Origin: a virus
IMG/VR virus record: IMGVR_UViG_3300031566_000113
Location: 1 to 43,142 of that record
DNA length: 43,142 bases
Strand: one strand, 5' to 3'
The position numbers and the translations under genes were made by a program. Positions 2,472 to 25,666 of this stretch are shown piece by piece (the first letter of the stretch is position 1; every line of letters starts with the position of its first letter). The notes under the pieces were generated by a model. That model made no database searches. It was not told where the DNA came from and saw nothing but the letters and a program-made list of their open reading frames with translations.

Positions 2472-3694
2472 TGGCCCTCGAGCTAACTACTACCGGCCTG
2501 TCGACGCAGACGCAGCAGGAAATCGCAGACGAGCTAGCCGCCAAGATTCGCGCGACATTTGGCGAGAATACTAAAACCTCTGCTGATTCGATTATGGGCC
2601 AGCTGGTAAACATCGTCGCAGAGCTGCGCGCAGTCGACCAGCAGACGCTGCTAGCCGTTTACCGATCATTCGACCCCAATGGCGCGATAGGCTCTGCGCT
2701 CGATAGGCTGCTTACGCTTACTGGCTCGACGCGACTAGGCGCTCTGTCGAGCGTAGTCGATGGGCTGGCAGAATTTAGCGCAGCAGGATCGCTAAACGAT
2801 GGCGACCTAATCCGTAACAGCGATAACGATACGCTTTGGAAATTGATAAACGGGCCCGTCGTAGCTGGCGGCGCTGGTTTTTTCGCTGCCACATTCCAGG
2901 CTGTAGATACCGGGCCTACGCTCGCTAACGCTGCTACATCCTGGTCGGTCGTAACAGTGGTCGCAAACTTCGTAGGCTTTACCAATCCGGCCGACGACGC
3001 AGAGCTAGGCAGGAATCAGGAAAGCGACGCAGACGCAAGGGCGCGAAGAATCGTCGAGCTTTTCTCGCAGGGTACTGGCCCGCTCGCGACGATTCGAGCT
3101 GCAGTATCTCGCGTCGACGGCGTGATAGGCGTAAACGCCTACCATAATCCGAGCGTAAATCCTGCAGACGTCGACGGTATACCGTTTAAAGCTTTCAACG
3201 TGGTAGCGCAGACGCAGCCGACCGTACCTACCGCTGCGCTGCAGCAGCTGATATTCGACGCCATCTTTAGCGCCATGGGCGCAGGCGGCCAAGCGTACGG
3301 TACAGGTTTTAGCGGTACGTCTATCGATACCGAGGGAATTGCGCACGTAATTGCGTTCGATACCGTCGACGTACAAGATATCGAAATCGAAATCGACCTC
3401 GTTACCTCGACCAGTGAATCGCCGATCACGCCGAACATAGAGGCGGTAGTCGCTGCGCAGGTAATACTGGTAGCGCAGGCCGGTTTCGAGGAAGTAGGGC
3501 GCGACGTATTGGCGCTCGACTTTCGCGGTATCGTTTACGACATGCTGCAGAGCGGCACGATTAGCGGCGTCGACGATGTAACCGTGCGCCTATCGATCCA
3601 GCCAGCGCCGCCAGCTGCGGTCGCTAAGCTGTCTATCGGTATTCGACAGATAGCCGATTACGATTCCGGAAACCTAACAGTGGTACAGGTTTAG
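2471..3694 (+). CDS. Baseplate J-like protein (Mu gp47 family)
   Basis: This 407-residue protein is a wedge component that links the central hub/spike to peripheral fibres in contractile tails. The N-terminal helical part (IADELAAKIRATFG, then DSIMGQLVNIVAELRAVDQQ) and the middle block around RARRIVELFSQGTGPLATIR, followed by AVSRVDGVIGVNAYHN, are typical of Baseplate_J. The length fits the family. It starts at an ATG overlapping the wedge gene stop (TAATG). Gene order gp25, J, then DUF2612/fibre genes is the classic one for P2/Mu-type baseplates. Confidence 0.9.
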   Translation: MALELTTTGLSTQTQQEIADELAAKIRATFGENTKTSADSIMGQLVNIVAELRAVDQQTLLAVYRSFDPNGAIGSALDRLLTLTGSTRLGALSSVVDGLAEFSAAGSLNDGDLIRNSDNDTLWKLINGPVVAGGAGFFAATFQAVDTGPTLANAATSWSVVTVVANFVGFTNPADDAELGRNQESDADARARRIVELFSQGTGPLATIRAAVSRVDGVIGVNAYHNPSVNPADVDGIPFKAFNVVAQTQPTVPTAALQQLIFDAIFSAMGAGGQAYGTGFSGTSIDTEGIAHVIAFDTVDVQDIEIEIDLVTSTSESPITPNIEAVVAAQVILVAQAGFEEVGRDVLALDFRGIVYDMLQSGTISGVDDVTVRLSIQPAPPAAVAKLSIGIRQIADYDSGNLTVVQV

Positions 3695-3696
3695 TT

Positions 3697-4653
3697 ATGA
3701 CGATGCGATTTGCCCCGAATGTTACGATTGCAGACGCTGGTACGGATAGCGTTTTGAAATACCTATTTCAGTGGCTGGATTTCATGCGCGCGGCATCGCC
3801 GACCGGGCCTGGCTGGACTGTACCGCGCTCGAGCGACGGTACTACCGGCGGCGCAGGCGATAACATCGCATCGTTTTCGGATCTGTCGCAGTACGTCGCA
3901 GCGACCTCGATTAGCTGGTTTGTGATTCGCCAGCCGGACGGCGGCCGCGAGTACCTGTTTTATCGTACGACTGCGACCGATACGCAGTGGTCGCTACTGT
4001 ATTCGCCAGGCGCGCTTTTCATAGGCGGAACAATCGCAGCTATCCCTACTGCGACCGATGGCGAACAGATCCTGCTAACCGATATCCTAACGCTAACCGG
4101 TAACAAGGTTTTGCACGCTGGCGCCGACGACGCAGCGCCATACGGCTGGTATGTGTTCGCTAACGCATCCGGCGATCTAACTACCGAGCACGGCGGCATG
4201 ACTATGATTCCGCTAACGGATGGTTTGCAGCCAGGAGAGGTCGACTCCATCGTATTTTTTCAGGATGGCGGCGGCGCCGGTTTTCTTCGCGCCGGATTGT
4301 CGACTGAGACACGCAGCGACACACAGGCCTGCACTGCAGGATTTACACCCGGATCGGCCGTGTGGGAATCGGTACCTGCTCTGTCTGTTAACTCAAGTGG
4401 TAACTATGTTTTCCCAGGAGGCGCATCGCAGGACGACAATGGAGAGGATGTTAGCGCGCCGATCCAATTCGGTAGACGCGCAGCGCTGGTTCCATCCGGC
4501 ATAAAAGGATTCTCGGATTTCATGCAGTGGAATGGAGCAATCCGCGCGAATGGATCTACGTTCGAGCGGGCAGGTAGCGGTAACCCGGATCGCATATCAT
4601 GGGGCGATGTGAACTTTGAATGGGACGGCGTAACCACGCCGAGCGCCACCTAG
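3697..4653 (+). CDS. Putative tail fibre or baseplate-associated virion protein
   Basis: This 318-residue protein follows gpJ with a 2-base gap. It is rich in Gly, Ser, Thr and aromatic residues and lacks a signal peptide or membrane segment, like receptor-facing tail proteins. Residues about 1-190 share the base composition of the rest of the phage. The C-terminal third (from about base 4280) switches to different codons, including ACA, GGA and TCA, suggesting a recently exchanged tip. No specific family is recognised. Position argues for a fibre or a peripheral baseplate protein. Confidence 0.7.
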   Translation: MTMRFAPNVTIADAGTDSVLKYLFQWLDFMRAASPTGPGWTVPRSSDGTTGGAGDNIASFSDLSQYVAATSISWFVIRQPDGGREYLFYRTTATDTQWSLLYSPGALFIGGTIAAIPTATDGEQILLTDILTLTGNKVLHAGADDAAPYGWYVFANASGDLTTEHGGMTMIPLTDGLQPGEVDSIVFFQDGGGAGFLRAGLSTETRSDTQACTAGFTPGSAVWESVPALSVNSSGNYVFPGGASQDDNGEDVSAPIQFGRRAALVPSGIKGFSDFMQWNGAIRANGSTFERAGSGNPDRISWGDVNFEWDGVTTPSAT

Positions 4654-17252: not shown

Positions 17253-18361
17253 CCTACGTTTCCGAATAGGCCTAGCTGCGCTGTACGCTTCTTTATCAGC
17301 GGCTCGTAATCTGGATTTAGCTCGATACCGAACCACTTACGACCTAGCGCCTCTGCGACCATGCCAGTCGTACCGCTGCCTAGGAAGGGGTCGAGTACCA
17401 TGCCGCCCATAGGCGCGCCTGCCATGATGCAAGGTTCGATTAGCTTTGGCGGAAAGCAGGCGAAATGCGCGCCGCTGTAGGCGATGCTAGGTACGCGCCA
17501 AACGCTGCGCTTATTCCTGCCGTCGTCGCGCTGTCGACTGTCTGCGCCCTGCGCCTGGTTACCGATTGCAGAGTGCTTACTCGCACGATTGAAAACGCCG
17601 CCGCTGCCATTCGTTACCATCTGCTCGCGAATCGCATCTGCGTCGTAGTGGTACGTCGAGGATTTGCTAAGCAGGAAAATATATTCATGCGCTTTTGTTG
17701 GTCGGTCGGTTACGCTTTCCGGCATAGGATTTGGTTTCGACCAGATGATATCGCTGCGCAGGTACCATCCGTCGGCCTGCAGCGCGAAAGCTACGCGCCA
17801 TGGTATGCCTACCAAATCTTTAGGCTTTAGATTGGCAGGAACGCTGCGAGCTATGGCGTACTGCGCTGCGCCCCTGTCCTTACCGCCGTCGAGCGTACTT
17901 GACGCGCTAGGATTGGACATGCCGCCAGCTGCGTAGCTGTCGCCTAGGTTAATCCAGAGCGTACCATCGTCGCGCAGTACTCGTTTTACCTCTGCGAATA
18001 TCTCGACCATGCGCTCGACGTAGGCCTCTGGCGTTTCCTCTAGGCCTACTTGCATGTCGACGCGAGTAGCGCCGCATTTGGCGCAGGTTTGGCGGTACTG
18101 CTGCGAGCGATTCATAACCTGCGCTTTAATGACATCGTTTGACATGCCGTTAGGCAGGCCGTCGCCTGCGCAGTCAAGCGTCGGCGCTTTGAATCCGCCT
18201 AGCGGCGGTCGCAAATGGTCGCAGTCGCTGTCGCCGCCATCCCAGGTCGCAGTGCCGTAGTCGCGCAGGCCCCAATATGGCGGCGACGTAACGCACGTTT
18301 GCGCGAAACCTGCGTCGAGCTTGCGCAGCTCGGTTAAGCAATCGCCTATAGCGTAGCTCAT
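17249..18361 (-). CDS. DNA methyltransferase (N4-cytosine/N6-adenine, beta-type order)
   Basis: This 370-residue protein starts at the ATG at 18361, which overlaps the upstream stop (ATGA). The catalytic motif TSPPYW is at residues 25-30. The AdoMet-binding motif LDPFLGSGTT lies near the C-terminus (about 323-332), followed by GIELNPDY, so the motif order is beta-type. A middle CxxCGA segment followed by QVGLEETPEAY is common to phage-borne site-specific methyltransferases. No restriction partner is seen, so protection of phage DNA or expression control is likely. The stop codon shares one CTAG with the stop of the convergent peptidase gene. Confidence 0.9.
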   Translation of the reverse strand: MSYAIGDCLTELRKLDAGFAQTCVTSPPYWGLRDYGTATWDGGDSDCDHLRPPLGGFKAPTLDCAGDGLPNGMSNDVIKAQVMNRSQQYRQTCAKCGATRVDMQVGLEETPEAYVERMVEIFAEVKRVLRDDGTLWINLGDSYAAGGMSNPSASSTLDGGKDRGAAQYAIARSVPANLKPKDLVGIPWRVAFALQADGWYLRSDIIWSKPNPMPESVTDRPTKAHEYIFLLSKSSTYHYDADAIREQMVTNGSGGVFNRASKHSAIGNQAQGADSRQRDDGRNKRSVWRVPSIAYSGAHFACFPPKLIEPCIMAGAPMGGMVLDPFLGSGTTGMVAEALGRKWFGIELNPDYEPLIKKRTAQLGLFGNVG

Positions 18362-24234: not shown

Positions 24235-24257
24235 GTCAAACGTGCTAGTAGTTTGAC
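24235..24257. promoter_or_regulatory. Inverted pair of the iteron word GTCAAAC
   Basis: GTCAAAC (24235-24241) and its reverse complement GTTTGAC (24251-24257) are separated by 9 bases, between the ribbon-helix-helix gene and the zinc-ribbon gene. The same 7-mer occurs four times in direct orientation inside the replication gene 600 bp downstream. In iteron plasmids such an inverted pair is the operator through which the initiator represses its own gene. No T-run follows, so it is not a terminator. Confidence 0.7.
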
Positions 24258-24480
24258 TGTGCGACACTGGACAATCCTAGATCGTGGCAGCGTTCCTGTT
24301 GGCGCGCCGAAATTCGCGTTTAGCTGCCCTGGCTGCGACGCAGTAGCCATGCTGCCAGTAGTAGGTAAGCCGCTCGCGCAGCTTGCAGACGGCGGTATCG
24401 TTTTCGACGTTGGACCGCGTGCACTGCCCGTATCGATGCGCTGTACGAGCTGCCGCCATGTATTCACGACTGAGGAATGA
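24253..24480 (+). CDS. Small zinc-ribbon protein
   Basis: This protein is 75 residues from TTG at 24253, or 73 from GTG at 24259; no ATG start is available. Two Cys pairs, CPGC at 25-28 and CTSC at 64-67, would hold one zinc. Between them are strands (AVAMLPVVG, then GIVFDVGP). It ends with HVFTTEE. Such ribbons bind DNA, RNA or protein partners. The gene begins on the inverted GTCAAAC pair and overlaps the replication gene start, so it is likely co-controlled with replication. Confidence 0.62.
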   Translation: MTVRHWTILDRGSVPVGAPKFAFSCPGCDAVAMLPVVGKPLAQLADGGIVFDVGPRALPVSMRCTSCRHVFTTEE

Positions 24481-25448
24481 TGTACGGAAAATGGTTTAAA
24501 TCCGCCTATACAGGTTCGATGTACGGCGCTGGCGAGCATGTTTTTGCGGTCTGGTCCTGGGTAGTCGCTAACGCTGGCCCATCTGGCGTAGTCGAGATCA
24601 ATCCGCGTGCACTGGCAGACTCGATAGGCTCGACGCCAGAGCGGATGCAGGCGGCGCTCGAGTACCTTACTGGCGAGGATTCCGACAGCAGAACCAAAGC
24701 AGAGGGCGGTCGACGCCTGCTGCATGAGGGCGGCTACCAATATCGGATCGTAAACCATGGCGTCTACAGGTCGCTGCGAGACGAGCAGGAACGGCGCGAC
24801 TATAACCGTACGAAAATGCAGGAATCTCGTGCGCGAAAGCGTCAAACGCAGGATGCGAAAGTCAAACGCGGTCAAACGCAAAGTCAAACAAGTGTACCGC
24901 CGTGTGCCTATACAGAGGCAGAGGCAGAGTTAGAGGCAGATCCAAATACAGAAGCCGTAGCCGCCGTAGGTTGCGCGCGCACGCCTGTAGCAAGCGACAT
25001 GCCAGAACCAGACGCAACAACTGCAGCAACGGCAACAACTGCGGATCTGTCGAAACAGGTCGAGGCAGGTACGGTCGATCCGCTCGCAGCTGCCATCCTG
25101 CAGACGCTGCGCAGCGACAGGCGCGCCGTCGAGCTTGGTATCGCAGAGCTGCCATATGCCGAGCAGCTGCTTGGCGTAGTCGCTCTGGCGCCCTATCCGC
25201 TAACCGCTGCGACTGCTGGCGAGGCTATCTGCGATGCGCTAGCCGACCTGCCAGCAGGCGCTAACGAGCAATTCGCGCGCAAGATGGTACGAAGCTACCT
25301 CAAACAACAGGCGAAAAAACCGCCTGGCGAGCATGCGCACAGATCGCAGGATACCGACGTCGCTAGCGCGCTCGGAATCAAGTCGAGCAGATCGACCAGT
25401 AAGCAATACGCTGCGCCGTACCATCGACCATTCGAGGCAGACGAATGA
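24477..25448 (+). CDS. Replication initiator (lambda O-like organisation)
   Basis: This 323-residue protein is most likely the origin-binding protein. Residues 1-115 look like a winged helix of phage replication proteins: KWFKSAYTG, then HVFAVWSWVVANAGPSGVVE, RALADSIG, a helix ending ALEYLTGEDSDSR, and YRIVNHGVYRSLRDEQERRD leading to YNRTKMQESRARKRQ. The centre (122-138) is encoded by the iterons. A Glu/Ala/Thr-rich linker and a helical C-terminal domain (195-285, EQLLGVVALAPYPLTAATAG), perhaps for helicase loading, follow. Start is ATG 24477 or 24480; GAGG at 24472 slightly favours the latter. Confidence 0.78.
   Translation: MMYGKWFKSAYTGSMYGAGEHVFAVWSWVVANAGPSGVVEINPRALADSIGSTPERMQAALEYLTGEDSDSRTKAEGGRRLLHEGGYQYRIVNHGVYRSLRDEQERRDYNRTKMQESRARKRQTQDAKVKRGQTQSQTSVPPCAYTEAEAELEADPNTEAVAAVGCARTPVASDMPEPDATTAATATTADLSKQVEAGTVDPLAAAILQTLRSDRRAVELGIAELPYAEQLLGVVALAPYPLTAATAGEAICDALADLPAGANEQFARKMVRSYLKQQAKKPPGEHAHRSQDTDVASALGIKSSRSTSKQYAAPYHRPFEADE
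24841..24889 (+). repeat. Iterons: four GTCAAAC repeats, putative replication origin
   Basis: GTCAAACGC occurs at 24841, 24861 and 24871, and GTCAAACAA at 24883, with start spacings of 20, 10 and 12 bases, so all lie on nearly the same helix face. The second copy is in a different reading frame from the other three (GTC AAA CGC against GT CAA ACG C). This shows the DNA, not the peptide, is what is kept. Position inside the initiator gene is as in lambda O. A purine-rich strand with repeated AGAGGC follows at about 24915-24945. Confidence 0.8.
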
Positions 25449-25666
25449 GCGACGACGCTTTCGACGCCAGGCCTATGGTAGTGCACGGATTGAGCTGCTG
25501 CGTACGCGAATGTTTAGCGCTGCGCTGGTCGCGCGACGACTACCTGCGCATTGTTAGCCAATCATGGACAAGATTTACCGAGCGCGGCCAGAGGCAGCAC
25601 GATACGCGAGCAGAGCGCCTGCAGCTCGCCGGTAAGGTTTGGGATCTAACGACTGGCGCAGCATGA
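25445..25666 (+). CDS. Small hypothetical protein
   Basis: This 73-residue protein starts at an ATG overlapping the initiator stop (ATGA). It has three Cys (SCCVREC at about 17-23) and a mainly helical, basic C-terminal part (FTERGQRQHDTRAERLQLAG). I do not recognise a family. Coupling to the initiator suggests a replication-linked role such as helper or modulator, but only by position. Confidence 0.58.
   Translation: MSDDAFDARPMVVHGLSCCVRECLALRWSRDDYLRIVSQSWTRFTERGQRQHDTRAERLQLAGKVWDLTTGAA

Follow-up and report, generated by a model that had tools for sequence, protein, structure and literature searches.

A probable replication origin inside the initiator gene of a myovirus, with matching sites in the operon leader

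The closest described systems place an origin of replication inside a replication gene. The lambda origin lies inside the initiator gene O (PMC7466680). In SPP1, oriL consists of direct repeats within the replisome-organiser gene 38, adjoining the opening region (PMC6316719). In 80alpha, the deletion of ORF20 cannot be complemented in trans (PMC5499656), and the origin is therefore thought to be inside this gene. Here we analysed the virus contig IMGVR_UViG_3300031566_000113, all 43,142 bases of which make up the window, that is, the whole stretch of DNA under analysis. Replication of this phage probably begins at a short repeat-rich stretch within the gene that encodes its start protein, and the same site, present again in the operon leader, is the likely off-switch.

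The two ends of the contig (1–4156 and 38987–43142) share a 4,156-base repeat at 99.86% identity, and the six differences all lie inside the first 152 bases. The real genome is therefore about 38,986 bp; the end repeat represents circular permutation or assembly past its own start, and the record is stored as a single longer entry. A tail sheath gene (PHROG 205) bears out the initial annotation of the phage as a myovirus, and the left arm of the genome encodes RecT and an exonuclease. The plasmid-like stage suggested by the same annotation finds no support, since neither an integrase nor a partition gene turned up in the proteins scanned and DnaA boxes are absent from the vicinity of the iterons described below. 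Among 29 loci checked, L027 is the sole one with a perfect DnaA box (TTATCCACA) near the initiator, 330 bases upstream of it. The GC skew, proposed as a check for an origin near 24.8 kb, changes sign near 24 kb in the window. This is no evidence for an origin, because the gene direction flips there too.

Rightward from about 24.0 kb, the window contains a small ribbon-helix-helix-like ORF (assigned by eye only), an inverted pair of GTCAAAC heptamers, a zinc-ribbon ORF, the initiator, a 73-residue ORF and an HTH_3 protein. The features are arranged as follows.

24235–24257, inverted GTCAAAC pair, the likely operator; arms at 24235–24241 (plus strand) and 24251–24257 (minus strand), separated by a 9-base gap
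24253–24480, plus strand, zinc-ribbon ORF, the first of a two-gene module; start at TTG 24253 or GTG 24259; Zn_ribbon_4 match of E 1.7e-4, below the cut-off
24477–25448, plus strand, initiator (replisome-organiser-like) gene, 323 residues
24477–24851, plus strand, winged-helix N-terminal domain ending in a long basic C-terminal helix, assigned from alignment, AlphaFold and fold matches
24841–24847, plus strand, iteron 1, GTCAAAC
24861–24867, plus strand, iteron 2, GTCAAAC, in a different codon frame
24871–24877, plus strand, iteron 3, GTCAAAC
24883–24889, plus strand, iteron 4, GTCAAAC
24892–24908, plus strand, GTGTACC GCC GTGTGCC, two boxes 10 bases apart, matching in position the GTGTRCC or TGTCAGCC boxes of relatives
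24913–24954, plus strand, YAGANN tract, CAGAGG CAGAGG CAGAGT TAGAGG CAGATC, one slot missed, then CAGAAG; adjoins the iterons and boxes
25639, HTH protein, downstream of the initiator

The YAGANN tract, the GTGTRCC/TGTCAGCC boxes and the zinc-ribbon gene, which separates the likely operator from the initiator, are additions to the initial annotation.

What kind of protein does this gene encode? The AlphaFold model of the N-terminal domain consists of a winged helix and a long basic helix (pLDDT 83). The fold matches are weak (1hkq, E 0.066; 7u7o, E 0.18), yet they are winged helices: those from the PDB include pPS10 RepA and RepE, and those from the viral library include phage replication proteins. 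PHROG 10469, a DnaD-like helicase loader, also matches weakly (E 0.087). Searches against Pfam, NCBIfam and PHROG gave no family match, including none to PF09681 (Phage_rep_org_N), and no sequence match was found to lambda O or to RepA/RepE. No helicase loader was recognised adjoining the initiator, the 73-residue ORF that follows being without a match.

Homology searches that used the whole protein or its N-terminus directly as the query retrieved no relatives. These were reached via a degenerate DNA pattern for [DE]RR[DE]YNRxK and then via alignment, which recovered 50 viral loci and one in a Burkholderiales genome, corresponding to about 40 distinct relatives. About 30 close relatives are mostly 40–55% identical over 120 residues, and a cousin family is 30–37% identical. 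The relatives are mostly metagenomic and of common ancestry, so that the locus counts given below are not independent events. In most of the close relatives (L026–L075), a zinc-ribbon gene with the pattern WxILDxG...CPxCGxxAxLPVxG...IxCRxCxRxF lies directly 5′ of the initiator, and it is missing from the cousins. As the cousins keep the iterons without this gene, the comparison favours the winged-helix protein as the one that would bind GTCAAAC. The zinc-ribbon protein is possibly a partner in replication or control.

A recount reproduced exactly all of the GTCAAAC coordinates of the initial annotation, as well as the spacings of the direct copies (20, 10 and 12 bases) and the 9-base gap of the inverted pair. 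The heptamer occurs eight times in the window, as compared to 2.1 ± 1.6 expected, and the only copies outside the two sets are at 18137 (minus strand) and 26466 (plus strand). Apart from GTCAAAC, no 7-mer of the window packs four non-overlapping copies into 49 bases, and a comparable cluster of any 7-mer was absent from all 300 simulated first-order Markov genomes of the same dinucleotide make-up. When the 21 residues of the iterons were recoded synonymously, four copies of any 7-mer arose in 2 of 20,000 trials. The second direct copy had been described as lying in a different codon frame, so that the DNA itself would be conserved; the frames of iterons 1–4 are indeed 1, 0, 1 and 1. The inverted pair alone is unremarkable, given the 79 perfect 7-bp inverted pairs with spacers of 3–14 bases in the window, and nothing sets its hairpin apart (z = −0.84). 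It is notable because it consists of the same heptamer as the iterons, and because a cluster of sites occupies the same place in relatives. Its right arm overlaps the possible TTG start (24253) of the zinc-ribbon ORF.

The same arrangement recurs in the relatives. In most of them, the DNA right after the winged-helix domain contains GTCAAnn or TGTCAATGACA sites, followed by GTGTRCC or TGTCAGCC boxes. GTCAAAC itself is directional, and the palindromic TGTCAATGACA occurs in some relatives. GTCAA is the most enriched pentamer in the linkers, where forward GTCA reaches a density of 25.5/kb versus 2.8/kb in the background (about ninefold). The spacings between GTCA sites peak at 10 bases (40 of 109), with 77 of the 109 falling within 9–12 bases, which places the direct iterons in helical phase. 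Of 35 loci with several sites, 33 have them in more than one codon frame; the DNA, and not the peptide, is conserved.

The YAGANN tract adjoining the iterons is purine-asymmetric rather than AT-rich: positions 24910–24946 are 73% purine, with a GC content of 0.49 versus 0.62 alongside. Among 42 relatives selected by protein alone, 27 have at least four in-phase YAGANN units in the linker, and no such tract of at least four units was found elsewhere on the same strand in the 42. Synonymous recoding mostly does not recreate the tract. Its period is 7 in L038 and L043, and the CTGTATCTG-type tracts of L033 and L035 represent the opposite strand. In L026 and L028, the initiator gene ends within 12 nucleotides past the domain, and the element composed of iterons and tract lies beyond the stop codon. 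The ORFs over the element have 46 codons in L026 (the only one there) and 53 and 125 codons in L028, and none resembles the lost linker in a fixed frame. In L066, the linker has no tract and a single remaining GTCA, while the iterons, a TGTCAGCC box and (CAGATG)8 are found together about 470 bases upstream (3250–3700), on the opposite strand in an intergenic region overlapped by short ORFs only. L058 has a displaced version of the element with other repeats. The two sets of sites, like the tract, are non-random; they recur among the relatives, show constraint at the DNA level and are movable as a unit.

A scan of IMG/VR for GTCA N5-35 TACAGANNCAGANNCAGANNCAGA gave at least 120 matches; as the pattern selects for the tract, these indicate its breadth and not its frequency. 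Ten proteins were tested among the matches listed: two pass the PF09681 cut-off, one matches DUF1376 and three match PF09681 weakly, and these PF09681/DUF1376-type matches carry iterons of other sequence. Scan matches in the L030–L191 range (e.g., L083, L087, L093 and L148) have GTCACG or AACGTTAC iterons followed by (ACAGAT)n; the linkers concerned belong to many phage replication proteins that look unrelated. In L202 (PinkBerry-associated phage MD08, about 930–1100), an AGA-rich tract precedes the AACGTTAC repeats rather than following them. Among nine named phages selected by protein alone, a strict YAGA chain of at least three units is present in Oenococcus phiS11, Streptococcus Javan242 and Pseudomonas P52, and looser AGA-rich tracts occur in most of the other six; with the strict chain in three of nine, the generality of the tract is not established. 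In the literature searched, which was covered in part, we found no description of a YAGANN tract. It is possible, though on balance doubtful, that the tract is a common, unrecognised part of many tailed-phage origins, hidden at the protein level behind (TD)n, (EA)n or (SD)n linkers. As it stands beside initiators of different N-terminal families and beside different iterons, a shared host factor would then read it.

What such a factor might do with the tract is a matter of speculation: the tract could be the strand captured in helicase loading, or a primase start array. The start sites of gammaproteobacterial and Firmicutes primases are CTG, CTA or TTA (PMC5204125), and the complement of the tract offers 5′-CTG or 5′-CTA every six bases. 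We considered and set aside the idea that CAGA or TAGA is chosen according to the preference of the host primase for CTG or CTA; L087, with a domain matching Oenococcus phages, uses CAGATA. Identity of the tract with the DnaA-trio was likewise rejected: CAGAAG units fit the A-centred triplet, and GATACA units do not.

We next consider the leader, defined as the 80 bases before the conserved tryptophan codon of the zinc-ribbon gene, in the 21 operons where this gene could be placed. The two most strongly enriched pentamers in these leaders are GTCAA (24 copies) and TTGAC (26 copies), each at about 15/kb versus 0.6/kb. The leader sites have no strand bias, whereas the linker array is directional. 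GTCAANN heptamers common to a locus's own linker and leader number 15, as compared to 5.85 in permuted pairs (0/2000), a difference that relatedness inflates. Promoter-like sequences (at least 9/12) are present in 11 of the 21 leaders versus 3% of random windows, with the TTGAC site as the −35 hexamer; at the inverted pair of the window, no consensus sigma-70 promoter was found. In the leaders of L034, L035, L041, L050 and L054, sites or promoter-like −10 boxes lie a few bases ahead of the zinc-ribbon start, as exemplified by the TATAAT of L050, six bases ahead of the ATG. This closeness suggests that the mRNA is leaderless in some relatives. When the relatives were compared for both repeat sets, many carried both, and the reading of the initial annotation stands in this respect; leader sites or the tract are absent from a few (L052, L053 and L075). 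Judging from the overlap of the sites with promoter-like sequences in relatives, autorepression via the leader is plausible. As far as the sequences tell, putative direct origin sites together with a candidate leader operator are a design conserved across the relatives.

How could the same sites serve both replication and gene control? On the basis of the lambda/SPP1/80alpha-like layout, combined with the iteron-plasmid-like leader and phased iterons, we propose initiator-dependent opening at the tract and self-limitation. The locus is thus likely to be a theta-type phage origin embedded in the initiator gene, with the same sites reused for gene control. The winged-helix N-terminal domain of the 24477–25448 protein would bind GTCAAAC half-sites, and copies bound next to one another along the helically phased direct array (24841–24889) would distort the DNA. 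The bound array may then act on the adjoining boxes and tract (24892–24954), where one strand of the YAGANN repeats would be exposed or captured, and the host helicase and primase loaded. Given its lack of AT-richness, the tract may be read as a single-stranded sequence. The same protein on the inverted sites (24235–24257), at the start of the zinc-ribbon/initiator operon, would limit its own synthesis. This model has four inferred elements: binding by the initiator itself, origin activity, the tract's role and autorepression.

The repeats might instead encode a low-complexity, charged or flexible linker, with the DNA repeats as a by-product of peptide repeats and slippage. Most relatives do have a low-complexity linker, and 109 of 120 tracts among the matches listed from the broad scan keep to one frame. 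However, the iterons occupy several codon frames at nearly all loci with more than one site, synonymous recoding seldom recreates the iterons or the tract, the element lies past the stop codon in L026 and L028 and between genes in L066, and the period of 7 in L038 and L043 also argues against a peptide repeat; a linker by-product is very unlikely. We give hardly any credence to the idea that the sites are operators for another regulator and no origin at all. The HTH protein at 25639 and the zinc-ribbon protein are both encoded nearby, but the iterons are kept in the cousins without the zinc-ribbon gene, one phage after another has a direct phased array with a tract in its initiator gene, and an in-gene origin is supported for 80alpha ORF20 (PMC5499656).

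Two further alternatives concern the leader. Both site sets could be part of the origin, with the leader cluster as a second replication or architectural site instead of an operator, just as SPP1 gp38 binds two separate regions. The presence of one motif at both places, the iterons and tract upstream of the initiator in L066 and L058, and the location of SPP1 oriL in gene 38 with oriR about 13 kb away (PMC6316719) all fit this explanation. It is nevertheless unlikely, because the leader sites are mixed or inverted, are tract-less in the majority of relatives, and overlap both the first start codon and promoter-like sequences. Alternatively, the TTGAC enrichment could reflect −35 boxes only, the inverted pair of the window could be due to chance, and the intragenic array alone could be functional. 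TTGAC is the −35 consensus, about half of the leaders have promoter-like sequences, and comparable inverted pairs abound in the window; the equal enrichment of forward GTCAA (24 versus 26 copies) and the sharing of leader heptamers with the linker of the same locus make this quite improbable.

If the preferred reading, an origin in the initiator gene with a self-regulatory leader, is correct, an initiator family without a database name gains a testable function and a candidate binding site, and a phage may use one motif for both origin and gene control. Should the tract prove general, it would explain the dipeptide-repeat linkers in so many phage replication proteins and make origins findable straight from sequence, and the reader of the opened strand at phage origins would become an in vitro question.

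The initial annotation had combined the logic of iteron plasmids with that of lambda O. This is borne out in that the initiator-type protein, the in-gene direct repeats and the leader cluster recur in many relatives. The iteron plasmids (F/RepE, pPS10, pSC101 and R6K) resemble the locus in their short direct iterons in helical phase and in the inverted copies at the initiator operon. In contrast, the iterons of the window are inside the gene, no AT-rich region, nearby DnaA box or partition gene was seen, and the initiator has no RepA/RepE-type sequence match, with weak fold similarity. The DnaA-trio of bacterial oriC, the consensus of which is A-centred triplets, also places short repeated purine-containing units beside double-strand initiator sites, whereas the tract has a period of 6 or 7 and a YAGA core. 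Like SPP1 gene 38, the window has direct repeats within a replisome-organiser-like gene. It differs from both SPP1 and 80alpha in its N-terminal family and in the lack of a recognised helicase gene, and from SPP1 in having its second site set in the operon leader, not at a distant oriR.

As in lambda, the repeats—putative binding sites—are inside the initiator gene, after the DNA-binding domain. The iterons of lambda and the Stx phages also lie in the initiator-gene linker, with a strand-asymmetric region immediately after them on the same strand; in lambda, one strand of this region carries the purines (PMC5043065, PMC7466680). The lambda iterons, however, are inverted repeats of 18–19 bases that bind O dimers, whereas those of the window are directional half-sites about 10 bases apart; the initiator lacks O homology and a recognised P-like loader next door, and the tract is a hexamer repeat, not AT-rich. 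Lambda O is not known to act as a repressor of its own operon. The locus departs from the lambda/SPP1 type in its initiator, which matches no family model, in its directional half-site iterons, and in its tract. It is best read as a lambda/SPP1-like intragenic origin combined with iteron-plasmid-like self-regulation.
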